This document shows, one piece after another, positions 318-28,488 of a stretch of 31,117 bases of DNA (position 1 is its first letter; each line of letters begins with the position of its first letter). The position numbers were made by a program, and so were the translations under genes. Source of the stretch: a virus. The stretch covers positions 1 to 31,117 of IMG/VR virus record IMGVR_UViG_3300025585_000121; one strand, 5' to 3'. The notes under the pieces are model-generated. The model did no database searches and was not told the DNA's origin. It saw nothing but the letters and a program-made list of their open reading frames with translations.

Positions 318-557
318 CTAGAGCAGGGCTGGTCCTTGCTTTCTCCAGTTACTGGGAGAATGGTTCTCTTCCACTCCCTTGCGTGTCTCGTCATCGGCAT
401 ACAGTCTGACGATATGGACACAGGGGTCCCCCTCTTCGAACTCCTCTTCCTCTTGTGAGGTCATCGGTAGTCCGTCATGGGTAATACAGATAGACGGTCC
501 GCACCATCCTTGTTGTATCCCTATCTCTATCCACTGCTGTAGGGTCAATGTGGGCAT
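318..557 (-). CDS. Small acidic conserved-type phage protein of unknown function
   Basis: This 79-residue protein has a very good ribosome binding site (AAGGAGG, 4 bases before the ATG). It is rich in Glu/Asp (an EEEEFEEGD run near residues 36-44), has two cysteines (Cys19 and Cys46), and ends in an Asn-His-Ser-Pro-Ser-x-Trp-Arg motif. I recognise no enzymatic or binding domain. It is the last gene but one of the minus-strand regulatory group (HTH-like, phosphoesterase, Ntn hydrolase, WhiB) and is separated from WhiB by 64 bases. The overall look resembles small conserved hypotheticals common in actinophages, but no function can be given. The opposite-strand frames here look like shadows. Confidence 0.75.
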   Translation of the reverse strand: MPTLTLQQWIEIGIQQGWCGPSICITHDGLPMTSQEEEEFEEGDPCVHIVRLYADDETRKGVEENHSPSNWRKQGPALL

Positions 558-621: not shown

Positions 622-939
622 CTACTTCTCGCCCCACATTTGGGCAAGCGTTGGTCTCACTGCCCTGATGCCCCTGCGCTTTTGTTCCGAAGCCAACTGA
701 CGACTCGTCAAGCCTGCCCAGACTCCGTGCATATCGGCTGCGGGGAACTCTAGGGCATATTCCAGACAATCTGCCTTTACAGGACACTCAGAACAGATTT
801 CACGGGCTTGCTGGATATAGGTGATGTCCTTGTGATGCCGTGGAAACATCAGGTGCGTCAAGCCCTTACAGGCTGCTTTGTGAGTCCAGTGGTTCTCATC
901 AGTGACAATCTTCTGGGGCTTGTTGTCTATCAAGGTCAC
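622..939 (-). CDS. WhiB-family transcription regulator
   Basis: This 105-residue protein carries the WhiB signature. Four cysteines (Cys24, Cys49, Cys52 and Cys58, the last three as CSECPVKADC) would hold a 4Fe-4S cluster. A Gly-Val-Trp-Ala-Gly-Leu-Thr turn (72-78) and a basic C-terminal stretch (KRRGIRAVR) follow. WhiB proteins are restricted to actinobacteria and their phages; they bind the principal sigma factor and change its promoter choice. The start codon is GTG at 939, and it overlaps the TGA of the upstream Ntn hydrolase gene as GTGA, which implies translational coupling. It probably acts on host or phage promoters during infection. The length is normal for the family and all key cysteines are present. 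Confidence 0.93.
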   Translation of the reverse strand: MTLIDNKPQKIVTDENHWTHKAACKGLTHLMFPRHHKDITYIQQAREICSECPVKADCLEYALEFPAADMHGVWAGLTSRQLASEQKRRGIRAVRPTLAQMWGEK

Positions 940-1553
940 TTGCCCTCACGCTGGGTATAGATATGGCAGGGACCGCCTGTATAGGGGTCATGGGTTCCTG
1001 CTACCTGAAGGGCGGTTGTCGTAACCTCTATCGCCCGCTTCATCGTCAAGCCCTCGGTAGAGTTGTCAATTAGAATATGAAGCGCCGCTCGGGCGTACTG
1101 ATAGCCGGTGCCGATGGCATAGATGCCGGTTGCGTCCTTCGACCATGAGTAGTCCGACTCAATGATGTAGATATTTGCCCTGACAGAGACGATGATGGTG
1201 GAGTTCTGCTCTGCCTGATGGTCTCGTTCCTGCTTATCAGGAGGACTAAAGCCTTCGTCGTCAAAGCAATTACGCAAAACTGGGATAAACCGACGCGTAA
1301 TATGCTGGTCTAGTTTCTCCGGTGTTGTTGCGTACCTCGTTGTCGGAGGCTGAAAGACATGGTGAAGGAGGTTGATAGCGCGCACATCACCGGCGGCTCC
1401 GAGAATGTATTCATCCTTTTCAGCCAGTTTGCTACTGGTCTTTGGCAGGATTGTCTGCCCACTGATGAATCCATTGTCGTCAAAGGAAGAAATCTTGGAG
1501 TCCGCTCCTAGAACGGTCCAGCCTTTCCCTTGTAGCCCGATGATGGTTGTCAT
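936..1553 (-). CDS. Proteasome-beta/HslV-like Ntn hydrolase
   Basis: This 205-residue protein starts MTTIIGLQGKGWTVLGADSK, the layout of proteasome beta and HslV subunits: after Met removal, a Thr nucleophile, a beta hairpin, then Ala-Asp (Asp18, equivalent to Asp17). Lys42 in SSKLAEKDEYILGAAGD fits the position of catalytic Lys33, followed by the conserved small-residue turn (LGAAGD, 51-56). A later GIYAIGTGYQYARAAL segment (143-158) matches the family's Gly-x-Gly turn and helix. Such proteins are self-compartmentalising peptidases. No propeptide is visible, so it would be active without processing. The start has GGAAGAATC before the ATG, and the end overlaps the WhiB start. Target and assembly state are unknown; a catalytically altered relative is possible. 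Confidence 0.8.
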   Translation of the reverse strand: MTTIIGLQGKGWTVLGADSKISSFDDNGFISGQTILPKTSSKLAEKDEYILGAAGDVRAINLLHHVFQPPTTRYATTPEKLDQHITRRFIPVLRNCFDDEGFSPPDKQERDHQAEQNSTIIVSVRANIYIIESDYSWSKDATGIYAIGTGYQYARAALHILIDNSTEGLTMKRAIEVTTTALQVAGTHDPYTGGPCHIYTQREGK

Positions 1554-1574: not shown

Positions 1575-2798
1575 TTAGATGATGGAGAGGTTGTCCCAGC
1601 CATCAGCCGTGACGCAGAAGGTCAGGGTTCCGGCGCGCGTCTTGACCCCATAGGTGTCTTGGAAATACTCGCCAACAGGGACGATTGACGGGCAGACAAA
1701 CAGCGCCCGACCCTCCTGCTCCTTGGCGTTGAAGTGGTGGTAATGCCCAGTTACCAGAATGTCAGCGTCAGCGACGCCCGGATGCGCTCGCCCGTGCGCT
1801 TGGTCCTTCCACCAGTTCCAGACAGCCTGAGCGGCATTGTTGCCTGCCTTCGATAGATGCCCATGGGTGAATGCCAGAATCTTGCCATTCACCTCAAGCG
1901 AGGTGGTGAGACGCTCTAGCGGAAGCCTCCACGAGATGTTAGGGAATGCTTCCTTATTCATCTGGAAAGCCTCAGCAAGTTGCTCAAAGACAGCAACATC
2001 GTCGTTGTCGCCAGTTGTGGTGAACGCCTTGCCACTCAGACCTCGGTTCTCGCCGTGATTACCACCGACGGCAGTAACAGTTAGCCTCTGAGCGAGCGGT
2101 GCTAGCGCGAAGATAATGTCCCTAATACCCCGTCGAACAATCTTCATCTGCTCGCGTCGGTCGACCTCAATGCGGAACTGCTGGGCGGGATAGTGCCCGC
2201 AGGTTCCCTCTACGAGGTCACCAAGACCAGCAATGACAATATGGTCAATCTTTAGACCAGTCTTGCGGAGGTCTTTGACTCTTTGGGAAATTTTCTCAGG
2301 TAGAAGAGCGATTTCTTCAACCTGCTTCTCTACTCCGCCACCGTCACGATTTCCGGTCTGCCAGTCCGACAAAGCAACGACAAAAGTGGTGTCCCCAGTG
2401 GGCGCCGGTTTTGATGATTTCTTTGACTTCTTGATGGACTGATATATCTCGTCCATATTTGGGCGTTCTGGCGACTTCAGCCGTATATCAGCCTTGTACG
2501 AGTAGCAGATAGCGCTATACGCCTCCCCACCCGCATAGTCTTTCTTCCACCCATCAAACGATGTCCAGCGAATACTGTCGCCGACGACCTCATAAAGGTT
2601 TGGGTCTAGACCACGCTCACGAAGCAGGTCGGACCAATCGGTCGGGGGTTCGTGGATAGCCGAGGTTGTAATCGTTCCTTTGGTTCCATCCCAGACAACT
2701 CCTGGTTCCCAGCCGGTCGGTGACTTGCGAGTCTTGACGGCATCTTTGAGTTCCGCCTCACCCTCAATTGCGGCAAGCCGCTTTGTTAGTTCGCTCAC
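1575..2798 (-). CDS. Calcineurin-like metallophosphoesterase
   Basis: The protein has about 407 residues, with the metallophosphoesterase motifs in order: SDWQTG (144-149), GLGDLVEG (191-198), GGNHGE (245-250), THGH (311-314) and GHYHH (351-355). These supply the Asp, Asn and His ligands for a two-metal centre; the first motif has Gln where many members have His. The substrate could be a nucleotide, nucleic acid or phosphoprotein; I cannot tell which. An upstream in-frame ATG exists at 2813, but a perfect AAGGAGG lies inside that extension, 4 bases before GTG 2798, so I chose GTG. That GTG overlaps the TGA of the upstream gene (GTGA). The first 140 residues form a separate N-terminal module with no recognised domain. 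Confidence 0.85.
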   Translation of the reverse strand: MSELTKRLAAIEGEAELKDAVKTRKSPTGWEPGVVWDGTKGTITTSAIHEPPTDWSDLLRERGLDPNLYEVVGDSIRWTSFDGWKKDYAGGEAYSAICYSYKADIRLKSPERPNMDEIYQSIKKSKKSSKPAPTGDTTFVVALSDWQTGNRDGGGVEKQVEEIALLPEKISQRVKDLRKTGLKIDHIVIAGLGDLVEGTCGHYPAQQFRIEVDRREQMKIVRRGIRDIIFALAPLAQRLTVTAVGGNHGENRGLSGKAFTTTGDNDDVAVFEQLAEAFQMNKEAFPNISWRLPLERLTTSLEVNGKILAFTHGHLSKAGNNAAQAVWNWWKDQAHGRAHPGVADADILVTGHYHHFNAKEQEGRALFVCPSIVPVGEYFQDTYGVKTRAGTLTFCVTADGWDNLSII

Positions 2799-3034
2799 TT
2801 CGCCTCCTTGCATCGACAGAAGCCTTTGCGATGAAGAGTCACCGTCTGACGGTCAACTTTGTATCCCTCAGTACGCAAAACCTCTGTAATAGAACGAGTT
2901 GAAGCGTGAGAAACAAGTGCACTAGTGAGGGCGTCTTTATCTTCTTTAGGAAGTTCGTCAAGTATCTTTCCAAGTGTGCAATAAAGAGGATGCGACACTT
3001 CAGGAAGATTCGCGAGTTTGTCCTTTAGACCCAT
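2795..3034 (-). CDS. Small HTH-like protein with C-terminal Cys pair
   Basis: This 79-residue protein has a segment that reads as a helix-turn-helix (roughly 45-72): STRSITEVLRTEGYKV followed by DRQTVTLHRKG. It ends with Cys-Arg-Cys and lysines. Small phage proteins of this kind can be DNA-binding regulators or terminase-small-subunit-like; I cannot decide. The ATG has GAGGGG six bases upstream. Its stop overlaps the GTG start of the phosphoesterase, so the two are probably translated together. It is the first gene of the minus-strand string that is divergent from the plus-strand regulator at 3103, with a 68-base shared control region. Confidence 0.7.
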   Translation of the reverse strand: MGLKDKLANLPEVSHPLYCTLGKILDELPKEDKDALTSALVSHASTRSITEVLRTEGYKVDRQTVTLHRKGFCRCKEAK

Positions 3035-6775: not shown

Positions 6776-6943
6776 TTACTCGTCTTTGTTAAGAAGCAGT
6801 GCAGTGACATAGACGCCAAATGAAATTCCGCTAATCCAAAGCCCCCACTTGAGCGTTTCCCCAGACAGGGTAATCAGAACCATGGCGGTACCGCCGAGGG
6901 TCCACGCCAAGCCAGTTGCCTCGTCAAAGAATTTCTTAAGCAT
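6776..6943 (-). CDS. Small two-helix membrane protein
   Basis: The frame is open from 6985, but the real start is probably the ATG at 6943, because AAGGAG lies 6 bases before it and the upstream gene stops there (TAATG overlap). The 55-residue product begins MLKKFFDEATG and has two hydrophobic stretches (about 10-25 and 33-50) ending NKDE. It is translationally coupled to the LPxTG surface protein. It could be a holin-like or accessory membrane protein. I see no family signature. Confidence 0.7.
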   Translation of the reverse strand: MLKKFFDEATGLAWTLGGTAMVLITLSGETLKWGLWISGISFGVYVTALLLNKDE

Positions 6944-8289
6944 TACTTTCTCCTTGTTGCCGGTTGGGCTGAAAGAATGAGGCAAAAGCCAAGCGCCATA
7001 AGACCAATAGCAAGGAGGACCTGAGTTTCTGTTCCATTACCAGTCTTAGGAAGGTCTGGCGTTAGCACGGGGATAGATGATGTGGTTGGGGATTCCGGAA
7101 GCGCTGTAGTCGTAGTTTCAGGAGCGGTCGTCGTAGTTTCGACTGGGACCGTAGTTTCACGATTGTCGTCATCATCCTCTGCCACAGTTGTTGTAGGTGC
7201 CTCGGTTGGTGCAGGCTCGGTAGCAGGGGGGTCGGTCTCAACTGGGTCCGTTGAAGGAGGGTCAGTTGGGTCCGTTGAAGGAGGGTCAGTCGCTTCGGGG
7301 TCTGTTGAAGGAGGGTCTGTAGCCACAGGGTCCGTAGCGGGCGGGTCAGTCACCGGAGGTTCAGTCGTGGCTGGCGGAACTGTTGGCGCATCCGAGTTAT
7401 TTGGCGCTACGGCTCCGAAATCTTCCCCATTCTTAGTCGTTGAGCCGGGCTGGCTATCAACTAGGAGGACGGGCGAGAGTGCTGTGTCATCAAGATTAAA
7501 GACCGCAAAGCCAAGGAGATAATCGCCAGTTACCGAGACGGTGTAGGTCGACATTTGCCAACCAGTAGAACCAAATGTGCCAGTGGAATAGTCGCCAGTT
7601 CCGGGGTTTGTGAAGCCAAGAAGCGCATACTGATTGCCACTATTATTTACCGAAACAGTAGGTGACCCTGAAGTTGGCGTCAGTGAAGTGATTGAGCCAT
7701 CGTTGAAGGGGACATAATCGGTGCCGATGTAGTTCCAAGACATAGTGTAGGTCGTTCCCGCCTGAAGCGTGACCGTCTTTGTAATCCATGAGGCATCAGT
7801 TGGCGAGCCACTTCCATAACCAGAAGCGGAAGCCTGATTTGACAATTCCGAGCGCATATCTGTTTCATCAGAACTACTGACCCCAAGTGCCGTCAGAGCA
7901 TCGTCAAATGTCTGGGAACTATTGGGCTGGAGTGCGACTGCATACGAGCCATACGGACTAAATGACCATGACGTAGGGTCAACCGCTGGCTGGTAGTAGG
8001 GGTTAGGCGAGCCATCACCGAGCGTCGGGTTACCAACTGCTCCGTGACTTCCCGCATTAAATGTCACTGACCCACTGATAAGGGTCACGCCAGACCCATT
8101 ACCAGTAATTAAGCCACCAGCCAGTGACCCACTCTGCGACCCAATATTCCAGTCAGATAGATTTCCAGACTCAAACCCAGTATCTGCCACAACCTCAGCA
8201 GATGCCGAGCCGAGACTCCACGGCATGATTAGCGAAATTCCAGAGATAGCAAGAAAACCACCAAGAATATTGAGTGTTCGAGTTTTCAT
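6943..8289 (-). CDS. Secreted, LPxTG-type wall-anchored surface protein
   Basis: This 448-residue protein has a signal peptide (about 1-31, cleavage after SASA). An extracellular beta-rich region with many Gly/Ser/Thr follows (about 33-285), then a Pro/Thr/Asp stalk with TDPPSTDP-type repeats (about 300-360) and a Thr-rich stretch. The C-terminus is a full sorting signal: LPKTG at 413-417, a hydrophobic span and RRK. Sortases cut such signals and link the protein to peptidoglycan, so it should be displayed on the host cell wall rather than built into the virion. The ATG overlaps the TGA of the upstream surface protein (TGATG). There is no enzymatic motif. It may change adsorption or block other phages; alternatively the window includes host-derived DNA. 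Confidence 0.82.
   Translation of the reverse strand: MKTRTLNILGGFLAISGISLIMPWSLGSASAEVVADTGFESGNLSDWNIGSQSGSLAGGLITGNGSGVTLISGSVTFNAGSHGAVGNPTLGDGSPNPYYQPAVDPTSWSFSPYGSYAVALQPNSSQTFDDALTALGVSSSDETDMRSELSNQASASGYGSGSPTDASWITKTVTLQAGTTYTMSWNYIGTDYVPFNDGSITSLTPTSGSPTVSVNNSGNQYALLGFTNPGTGDYSTGTFGSTGWQMSTYTVSVTGDYLLGFAVFNLDDTALSPVLLVDSQPGSTTKNGEDFGAVAPNNSDAPTVPPATTEPPVTDPPATDPVATDPPSTDPEATDPPSTDPTDPPSTDPVETDPPATEPAPTEAPTTTVAEDDDDNRETTVPVETTTTAPETTTTALPESPTTSSIPVLTPDLPKTGNGTETQVLLAIGLMALGFCLILSAQPATRRK
7244..7320. repeat. Imperfect tandem repeats coding for the TDPPSTDP stalk
   Basis: Three close copies of GGGTCCGTTGAAGGAGGGTC begin at 7244, 7268 and 7298 (the last with T for C at base 6). On the minus strand they encode DPPSTDP units of the stalk in the LPxTG protein. 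Copy-number change by slippage would alter the stalk length. Confidence 0.75.
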
Positions 8290-10067
8290 CAGTTCTTCCT
8301 TCTCCCTGCTCCGATTCCGGTTGTTGCTCCCATAATTGAGGTCGTTACCGTGACGGCAACGACCACACGACGCTCTCCAACCGTGATGGCAGAACCAGAT
8401 GGGACATATGCGTCAAATTGTCCTGAGTAGACATTGACCTCCTCTTCAAAGACTTCCTTGACGGAATCATCCGTCTCGTTCAGCGCTTCAACGAGTTGTT
8501 CAGTCTGCTCATCAGATAGATTTTCAAAATCAACTGATTCAATGACAGCCTTAATTTTATCACTATTAATATTACTAAAGGCTTTTGAACCTATGATTGA
8601 AATAAGGTCGTCGTCACTCGCTTCTTCAGGATTGATGTCGTCAAGAATTGCTTCAAGTTCTGCTGGGTCTTCAATAGCCTCAACAACCTCGGGAACTATT
8701 TCCTCAGGAAGTTGTTCTTCGGGCGGAGTCGTGATTTCTGGTTCAGGCTCTGGCGTTACCTCAGGCTCCGGAACTACTTCTGGAGCAGGCTCAGGCTCAG
8801 GCTCAGGTGCAACCTCAGGCTCTGGCTCTGGAGTTACCTCGGGTTCTGGAGCGGGTTCAGGTGCAACCTCTGGCTCAGGTTCTGGCTCTGGCTGAGGCTC
8901 AGGCTCGGGTTCCGGTTGAGGGTCTTCGTTATTTGATGGCGTATCAGTCGTAGTCGTTGTTTCTGGCTCAGTCGTGGTTGTAGTAGTCGCTGACTCTGTC
9001 GTCGTGGTTGTTTCTTCAGGAAGAGTTGTTGTTGTAGTTGTTGTAGGCACAGGGGCATCACCGCTGAATGCGGATGCTGGCACTACTTCATATGTACCCC
9101 CATCAATACTCCAGTAAAGATAGAAGCAGGTTCCTCCGCCGTTTTCGTACATCCATGCGTCGATTGAATACTGACCAACTGGGATATCTAGCGGTCCACT
9201 GAAAGAGGGGGAACAGCCCTTATCAGTCCACAAGCCAAATGGCGCTTGACCGTCAATCTCTACTTGACTTCCATCGTCTGAATAGACAACGAACTCAATG
9301 GTGTTGTGCTCAGGAATATTGATAAATCCCTGATAGTGCGCCATGAAATGGTCCCACCCACAGGTTCCGACATGCAACTCAGGGCTATCCCAGGTTTGAT
9401 AAATATTCTCGTACCAAGTTTCACCGCACTGCTGATACGCACTGTCTGAGATGGTAGGGGGAATATTTGTGACCGTATAGATAGTGGTAGCGAGTCCGCC
9501 CTCTGGAGCAGGAGGCTCAGTCGTAGTCGTGGTTGTTTCAACCGGCGGTGGTTCTTCGGCAACAAGAGACGCACCGCTGATTACTGGTCCATAACATCCA
9601 GCCCACCAGAGCGAATCAATACCCGAGAAACTGACGGTTACAGTCTCGTCATCGGATTGAGTCGTTATGGAGAGGGAGTGTTCGGTCGAACTTGCTTCGG
9701 TTATCGTCCCTGTAGAGATTGTTTCGTCATCATCCTCAAGGGATGCTGAATATTGACCACCGCCCTCACTCAGCATTCCAGTAAATGAAAGAGTGACCAC
9801 TCCCGCACTAGGAATGACGACGTCTTGACTAACTGTCGCCATTTCGTAAGAAAACGCCAAACTGTCGGCATACCATTCCCCAAGTGATGGCTGACCAGCA
9901 TTGCATGACGCTCCACCATTTGCTCCGGTCCAGCCCCCTTGATTGGCTGAAAATGAACCGTTAACTAGATAGTCAACTGGTTCGGCAGTTGCCCGATTCA
10001 GGGGCAGTATGAAGAAGAACAATATAAGCGGAAGAAAGGATATTGCTCGTCTAAGTTTATACGCCAC
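8289..10067 (-). CDS. Secreted PA14-like surface protein with Thr- and Pro-Glu-rich stalk
   Basis: This 592-residue protein has a signal peptide (1-28, ending ATA). A beta-sandwich-like domain (30-170) and a PA14-like domain follow (about 191-335, with [12 protein letters not shown] and [13 protein letters not shown] as typical strands). Next come a poly-Thr stretch (342-375), a long Pro-Glu repeat (381-446), an acidic helical region (455-543) and a hydrophobic C-terminus ending GAGRRKN. The last part resembles a sorting or membrane tail, but no LPxTG is visible. PA14 domains often bind carbohydrate. It starts with GTG, 6 bases after TACAAT and without a ribosome binding site. The stop overlaps the start of the LPxTG gene, so both are likely made together and displayed on the infected cell. 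Confidence 0.78.
8740..8925. repeat. Low-complexity Pro-Glu coding repeat
   Basis: Short units of the form GGCTCAGGTTCT and GGCTCAGGTGCAACC repeat through this stretch. On the minus strand they encode alternating Pro-Glu with occasional Val-Ala or Val-Thr. The opposite-strand frames here are shadows of this repeat. Confidence 0.75.
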
Positions 10068-26820: not shown

Positions 26821-28488
26821 TTAGGCGGAATAACCATCTTCGGTAAGCAACTCGGCGTCATAATTTCCAACGCTGAGAGCCGTATTGATTGCGCTAATAG
26901 CGTCGTCCGAAACAACGCCCTTGATTTCAATTCCGTGCTCATTGGCTGTTGCACTAAGACCGTGGAACTCAAAGACGGGGTCAAGCAATTGCTTCACCTC
27001 AAAAAGGTCCTCAAGATTTGCAGAGATGTTTGCAGTCTTTTCTTTCATCTCAATCTCGGAACGACCGCCAGCAGCAATCACTTCCTGAAGCAACTGCATT
27101 GCCTGACTCAACTTTTCAAGATTGCTTGCGTTAATAACGCGTCCAGCCTTGCCATGCGTATCCACGAATGATTTGACGTCGTCAACGACATCATCAAGGG
27201 ATTTACCTGCCCCACCGCAACCACAGCCGCAACCAGTCTTTGGCTTTACGAACTCGGGAGCCTCAGAATCCTCGTACTGCCTATCAAACATGTTCTGAGT
27301 AGGAGTTTTCTGTTCCTCTTCATCGCCATCTTCTTCGGGAAGATAAATGGTGCGAGGGGTAACGCCGATGGGCTTACCAAACATGAAGTCACCACCCTCA
27401 GAATGCCAACCCACTCTCATCGTCTGGGGCTTGCCATTCATCATGTGGTCGAAAACCACCAAATTGGGTTCCACGTGGCGTATACGAACCGGACCGCCGA
27501 ATCGCATCCCAATCGCGTTTGCTAGTTCCCGCATCATTTCGGGCTTCTCGCCCTCCTGATTGTTCCAGCACTTCTCGTCCATGTCGTAGGATGCCTCCAT
27601 TATGAAGGTCTTTTCCTTCATCTTGGAGTCCTGCTTCTTCATGGCTTCCCGGACAACATTCTTCATGTAGTCCTCGCCCCTGCTCCCAATCGCGAGCCAC
27701 TTGATTTGAGCGATGACGCCGGGGAGCCTGAAGTCGCCCGCGTGCCTTGCCACCCATGCTTCGCGCAATTCGAGCGCGTTGGTCTGTGCTTGGCTTTTTG
27801 CGACTCCGCCCGCCTCCGCAATTTGCGTGAGGATTCGGTACTGGTCGTTTCCCTTGATATTTCCGCCTGCCGCCCAAATCTGTGGGTAATCCCTCTTTAT
27901 TCGCTCTGCAAACTCACGGTCAAACATCGGCCACTTGGACTTCTTGAAGGAGTCCATCGGCTCCTCAGTAGAAGCAGCCTTGATTGAAATCGTACCAGTC
28001 AATTGATTAGCGCCATGCAATACAGGGCTAACTTCATATAGTTCTACTTCACGAAGAAGGTTTGCTTGACGAGCGTTATCATAAATAGCGTCAAGCGTCT
28101 TGTAGCCAATACTCCACTCCTGCTCTTCGCCATAAAATGAAACATTGGCAAACGCTTCGCGTCCCTTTTCGGACTGAAGGTTGAACTGAACCCGAGCAAA
28201 AAGTCCTCCGATTCCAGCCTTCTTCATTTTCGCCGGAAGACGAGGGTCGCTAGCAGGGACCTCATAAATCTCTAGAACCTTTCCAATTGGATGATTCCAG
28301 TCATGTCCCCACACAACGCGAGGCTTTCGACGCTTTAGGCTTTCAGTAAATGCGCCAGAGAGCACGATGTCGCCAACGCTGTCCTTGTTGCCGACGCCTG
28401 CAACAAAACACTCAACAATGCCCTTAGCCTCGTCAATTGAAACCTGACCAGGCATCGCTTTGAAATTGAAAGTCTCCGAAACCGGCAT
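26821..28488 (-). CDS. HK97-type prohead serine protease with long C-terminal extension
   Basis: The N-terminal 170 residues of this 555-residue protein match prohead proteases. GHDWNHPIGKV has His62 in the usual catalytic His position. EWSIGYK supplies Ser126, and REVELYEVSPVLHGANQLTG (146-165) is the typical closing strand. Such proteases cut the scaffold and capsid delta domains during maturation. The extension holds a block at 189-290 (EFAERIKRDYPQIWAAGGNI, LPGVIAQIKWLAIGSRGE), an unusual GCGCGCGG run (419-426), KSLDD (429-433), and a helical C-terminus that may act as a fused scaffold. GAGGTGG precedes the ATG. Usual prohead proteases are about 200 residues, so this one is over twice as long. 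Confidence 0.92.
   Translation of the reverse strand: MPVSETFNFKAMPGQVSIDEAKGIVECFVAGVGNKDSVGDIVLSGAFTESLKRRKPRVVWGHDWNHPIGKVLEIYEVPASDPRLPAKMKKAGIGGLFARVQFNLQSEKGREAFANVSFYGEEQEWSIGYKTLDAIYDNARQANLLREVELYEVSPVLHGANQLTGTISIKAASTEEPMDSFKKSKWPMFDREFAERIKRDYPQIWAAGGNIKGNDQYRILTQIAEAGGVAKSQAQTNALELREAWVARHAGDFRLPGVIAQIKWLAIGSRGEDYMKNVVREAMKKQDSKMKEKTFIMEASYDMDEKCWNNQEGEKPEMMRELANAIGMRFGGPVRIRHVEPNLVVFDHMMNGKPQTMRVGWHSEGGDFMFGKPIGVTPRTIYLPEEDGDEEEQKTPTQNMFDRQYEDSEAPEFVKPKTGCGCGCGGAGKSLDDVVDDVKSFVDTHGKAGRVINASNLEKLSQAMQLLQEVIAAGGRSEIEMKEKTANISANLEDLFEVKQLLDPVFEFHGLSATANEHGIEIKGVVSDDAISAINTALSVGNYDAELLTEDGYSA

Follow-up and report, generated by a model that had tools for sequence, protein, structure and literature searches.

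The 31,117-nucleotide window analyzed in this study is the entire linear IMG/VR virus record IMGVR_UViG_3300025585_000121 (positions 1 to 31,117), hereafter the source record. The central gene of the studied locus (936..1553, minus strand) encodes a 205-aa proteasome-fold Ntn hydrolase with the N-terminus MTTIIGLQGKGWTVLGADSK. It is followed by a gene for a WhiB-family protein (622..939, minus strand; 105 aa, GTG start), whose identity is confirmed by a match to PF02467 (E = 5.6e-15), and the two genes share the tetranucleotide GTGA at 939-936, which is composed of the WhiB GTG start and the protease TGA stop; both the neighbor and the coupling are thus as described in an earlier note on this sequence. 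Directly upstream of the protease gene, we identified a gene absent from that note, which encodes a 412-aa metallophosphoesterase (1575..2813, minus strand; PHROG_284 'exonuclease', E = 1.2e-55, with Pfam Metallophos_2 below cutoff). It is preceded by a gene for a small HTH-like protein of 79 aa (2795..3034, minus strand; PHROG_3979), the apparent counterpart of which in DSL-LC01 is annotated as the terminase small subunit. Another conserved 79-aa protein is encoded 3' of WhiB (318..557, minus strand); it has no match in Pfam or PHROG, and its homologs are located downstream of the protease in other loci of the WhiB and zinc-ribbon classes described below. A PADLOC search with five cassette proteins gave no anti-phage defense match.

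The translated protease begins with Met followed by Thr, and the Asp18 and Lys42 residues and the LGAAGD turn (residues 51-56), which constitutes the oxyanion turn, are all found in the protein, in agreement with the initial description. Upstream of the ATG codon, the open frame continues for approximately seven codons to an in-frame stop and contains no start codon (the whole open frame is 212 aa), which leaves no room for a propeptide, as the earlier note had claimed; thus, Thr2 must be the N-terminus once Met is gone. The cleaved propeptide that precedes Thr1 in bacterial 20S beta subunits is therefore missing from the phage protease, whose only ATG adjoins the Thr codon. Short and similar in-frame readings (VPQQGV, VQRQGI, VPWQGI) are observed 5' of the Met-Thr start in the diverse loci L016, L027, L045, L067, L084, L087, and L090; these are probably the end of the overlapping upstream gene read in a different frame, although they could also represent a leader that is conserved.

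The protein matches the Pfam Proteasome family PF00227 with 31.2 bits (cutoff 22.4; E = 2.2e-7) and PHROG_1040, annotated as 'peptidase HslV family', with E = 3.7e-21. The AlphaFold2 model built from a 48-sequence alignment (pLDDT 90.6, pTM 0.87) displays an alpha-beta-beta-alpha fold with an N-terminal Thr at position 1 and includes both helix pairs, formed by helices 57-65, 78-99, 151-161, and 171-188. Superposition by VIA-align gave Z scores of 18-20 on the DALI scale against 20S beta subunits, BPH (the betaproteobacterial proteasome homolog), and Anbu, and the catalytic Thr1 of most aligned chains corresponds to model residue 2, i.e., Thr2. HslV was the best Foldseek match of the model (E = 3e-10), with BPH at 3e-9, and a profile of 48 relatives compared with solved structures likewise retrieved HslV chains first (E = 7e-6) and BPH next (9e-5), while the identity of the protease to solved proteasome-family subunits is only approximately 12-22%. 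On the basis of the predicted model, the structural scores for these families tie, and the fold picks no single family among them. The assignment to the HslV equivalog was rejected (TIGR03692, 22.5 bits versus a cutoff of 157.75; NF003964, 26.2 bits versus a cutoff of 137), as was the assignment to the bacterial 20S proteasome beta (PrcB) equivalog (TIGR03690, 16.3 bits versus a cutoff of 191.9).

A single-sequence scan of viral contigs with the protease as query returned no match; the relatives were reached in two steps, via DSL-LC01 and then via an alignment, and the IMG/VR scan with this alignment yielded at least 582 confirmed relatives, 80 of which were kept. All 67 distinct core proteins retain Thr2, Thr3, Asp18, Lys42, Gly52, Gly55, Gly148, Gly150, and Asp189 and have either Thr or Ser at position 192; MTTI and LGAAGD were among the patterns used for the scan, so that the conservation of Thr2 and of the turn is partly built in, and the conservation of Asp18, Lys42, Asp189, and Thr192 is free of this bias. 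The set of conserved residues extends beyond the one noted earlier, as Asp189 and Thr192 pair, in a profile alignment with an archaeal beta subunit, with the DSASGG motif. They are the equivalents of Asp166 and Ser169, which belong to this motif in the proteasome. Loss of Thr2, Asp18, or Lys42 in relatives, which the earlier note had named as evidence against its own reading, was observed neither among the 67 distinct core proteins nor in six remote phage homologs that share 22-32% identity with the protease. Thus, the proposal of an Ntn hydrolase of the proteasome/HslV type whose catalytic set is intact is backed by PF00227, PHROG_1040, the fold, and the residues kept in relatives. The protein is a genuine viral proteasome homolog and is probably active.

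Three arrangements recur in the genomic context of the protease genes. In arrangement A, which is found in the source record and in loci L013, L014, L028, L067, L076, L085, L087, and L093, the small-terminase-like, metallophosphoesterase, protease, and WhiB genes follow each other, sometimes with the gene for the conserved 79-aa protein. Arrangement B consists of the terminase, small-terminase-like, metallophosphoesterase, protease, holin-like, portal, scaffold-like, and capsid genes. Arrangement C, often found in larger phages, combines the protease with a zinc-ribbon protein and the 79-aa protein. The zinc-ribbon protein (L071, 5046-5363, and homologs) is small, contains two zinc-ribbon-like Cys motifs, and is encoded at 17 loci, mostly directly downstream of the protease; it is possibly an equivalent partner where other loci have WhiB. 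The metallophosphoesterase gene adjoins the protease in 24 of the 44 clusters defined at 90% identity, whereas WhiB lies within 1 kb in 7 of them, and WhiB was therefore rejected as an obligate partner. On the tree of relatives, the WhiB trait requires six changes and appears in approximately five places. The mean WhiB density in the long carriers is approximately one per 60 kb, from which we estimate about one adjacency or fewer by chance, and the flanks of the loci contain no further WhiB beyond the adjacent ones. Thus, the position of the protease beside WhiB, as reported for the source record, recurs in other clusters, more often than by chance and in several places on the tree, and the linkage is real but optional.

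WhiB is encoded in 21 of the 23 long records with the protease, some of which were picked for WhiB adjacency and most of which were not; judging from this gene content, the protease clade is carried largely by actinophages. DSL-LC01, the named relative of highest identity, was assembled from lake water. The protease family is common in lake viruses of actinobacteria, and the source phage infects actinobacteria, probably freshwater ones. The scan of bacterial genomes identified a single relative, L093, on a contig filed under a gammaproteobacterial MAG; with its protease, WhiB, and cassette, it is probably a mis-binned actinophage. Two copies of the protease are encoded in record G010 of 267 kb (L037 and L070) and on one 42 kb contig (L072 and L078); the Thr, Asp, and Lys residues are intact in both members of each pair, and the paired copies could form mixed rings. 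Two further genes of the source record may encode secreted proteins. The 448-aa product of 6943-8289 (minus strand) has no Pfam match and contains an N-terminal signal-like segment, a Pro/Thr-rich region, and a C-terminal LPKTG motif followed by a hydrophobic stretch and RRK; it looks like a phage-encoded sortase-anchored cell-wall protein. The gene directly upstream (8289-10067, minus strand) encodes a 592-aa protein that begins with a signal-like segment and matches PA14 only weakly, below the cutoff (E = 8e-5); it is apparently a second secreted phage protein.

Several previously described systems resemble the source protease. The phage proteins of PHROG_1040 from DSL-LC01, Pumpernickel, Pitbull, D'Alembert, and Geobacillus virus E3, which are annotated as HslV, protease, or Ntn hydrolase, belong to the same family by HMM and tblastn searches and have the same catalytic residues, and in DSL-LC01, as in the source record, WhiB is the next gene. 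However, the source protease represents a distinct and abundant actinophage clade that is 23-40% identical to these named proteins by tblastn and is distinguished by the cassette with the metallophosphoesterase and small-terminase-like genes. The paper on DSL-LC01 from Dishui Lake discusses its WhiB genes, and the words 'HslV', 'protease', and 'proteasome' are absent from the main text; the literature searched contained no paper that combines phage, HslV, and WhiB. The phage-borne proteasome homologs AAH and PPH (Fuchs, Alva and Lupas, 2021; PMC8665760) share with the source protease a compact, propeptide-free organization of group I (HslV/BPH-like). PPH proteins have approximately 140 aa and lack helix H2 (PMC8665760), and the source protease, with 205 aa and both helix pairs, lies outside this group. 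For AAH, which we compared by its description only, no Actinobacteria-specific phage could be found in 2021 (PMC8665760), whereas the source clade resides in WhiB-encoding phages. On a quick tree with long branches, cellular homologs encoded on plasmids of rhizobia, Streptomyces, and Bacillus cluster with L010-L012, which are phages of the MTCI type, and are separate from the source clade. HslV (ClpQ) shares with the source protease the fold, the Thr/Asp/Lys triad, and the direct Met-Thr start; in contrast to HslV, the phage protein scores 26 versus 137 bits for the equivalog, has no HslU that could be found, and keeps a proteasome-like D-x-x-T-G motif. BPH shares the fold (Z score of 19) and likewise has no evident partner unfoldase, but it is approximately 16% identical, its bacterial genes belong to stress-regulated operons, and the tetradecameric assembly has been shown for BPH only (PMC5777263).

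Candidate partners were searched for in the long carriers. No ClpP was found in the 22 long carriers searched, and in 14 of 23 records, the WhiB-adjacent ones included, no AAA+ protein of the Clp/HslU type exceeded the cutoff. AAA_2 had no match in DSL-LC01, which is complete, or in the source record, which is a 31 kb fragment whose partner gene might be encoded elsewhere. The other nine of the 23 records, all of them large relatives, have strong AAA_2 matches of the ClpA/B-D2-like type (PHROG_4871), which are encoded tens of kilobases from the protease, in carriers with arrangement C where the neighbors are known. HslU or ClpX is not favored as the partner, as none scored above cutoff in the WhiB-adjacent records and the AAA+ proteins of the large relatives are ClpA/B-D2-like and non-adjacent; an ATPase partner is possible in the nine large relatives. 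The PHROG_4871 proteins of L103 and L104 (records G007 and G009) and of seven other large carriers are approximately 475 aa long and combine an N-terminal part without an assigned domain with a single ClpA/B-D2-like AAA+ module, and no ClpP accompanies them in the same record.

Taken together, we consider it likely that the gene encodes a catalytically competent HslV/BPH-like threonine protease of an actinophage, which is homo-oligomeric and acts on proteins or peptides in the course of infection, with no dedicated unfoldase of phage origin. The protease would be expressed from an apparent operon with the small-terminase-like protein and the metallophosphoesterase, and here also with WhiB. Met1 would be cleaved off by the methionine aminopeptidase of the host, so that Thr2 would become the N-terminal nucleophile, activated by Asp18 and Lys42. 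Subunits of this kind would be expected to form a homo-oligomeric single or double ring that encloses the active sites. The presumed peptidase would then act in the manner proposed for BPH, an epoxomicin-binding homo-tetradecamer with no apparent partner unfoldase (PMC5777263), which thus provides a precedent for a stand-alone protease. Removal of host regulators, suggested in the earlier note, is a possible outcome of this activity.

The gene order in arrangement B points to a different role, that of a morphogenesis protease with the scaffold, the portal, or further head proteins as its substrates, and would be accounted for by it. The portal gene is next in 36 of the 80 loci, often with scaffold-like and major capsid genes behind it, and the search of four portal-linked records (L018, L021, L045, and L090) revealed no S78 prohead protease. 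A search for the T4-type prohead protease PF03420 gave no match anywhere, controls included. However, the source record has its own S78 prohead protease (26824-28488), as do seven other carriers, which argues against the proteasome-like protein as the head protease there, since it would not be needed, and the loci of the WhiB and zinc-ribbon classes are not beside head genes. We thus regard morphogenesis as an unlikely explanation, while a head-protease role remains conceivable for arrangement B.

Many actinobacteria possess a proteasome, and the fold shared with the 20S proteasome underlies the other suggestion of the earlier note, that the phage subunits mix with those of the host and inhibit or redirect its proteasome. 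This suggestion was not supported, as the identity to solved subunits is approximately 12-22%, the score of 16 bits is far under the 20S beta cutoff of 192, and the nearest profile relatives, HslV and BPH, are homo-oligomeric; moreover, a pure inhibitor would not need a perfectly conserved active site. Given the low identity and the unbroken catalytic set, such mixed rings are highly improbable. The active site could also serve a non-protease reaction, as in a peptide ligase or transpeptidase like connectase, or belong to a highly specific processing enzyme that works as a monomer or single ring, given that the ligase connectase and predicted assemblies of atypical form also belong to the proteasome family (PMC8665760). 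The chances of this appear low, as the model has no connectase-type helical insertion between its early strands and the protein retains the extended Asp/Ser-Thr motif of proteasomes.

That phages carry proteasome homologs has been known since 2021; what is new is their abundance in actinophages and the conserved cassette. The literature searched contained no assay of any viral proteasome homolog. Beyond the stand-alone protease favored here, we propose, quite tentatively and with little confidence, that in this large actinophage clade the proteasome homolog, the metallophosphoesterase, and the small-terminase-like protein form a host-takeover or DNA-packaging cassette, in which WhiB, or elsewhere the zinc-ribbon protein, would direct the protease, either as its adaptor or as its substrate. 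With the gene present in hundreds of contigs from phages (mostly actinophages among those tested), an unbroken active site, and recurring neighborhoods, the use of a proteasome by phages becomes directly testable, and, if WhiB proteins or similar regulators are indeed targets of the protease, this would constitute a new route of host takeover.
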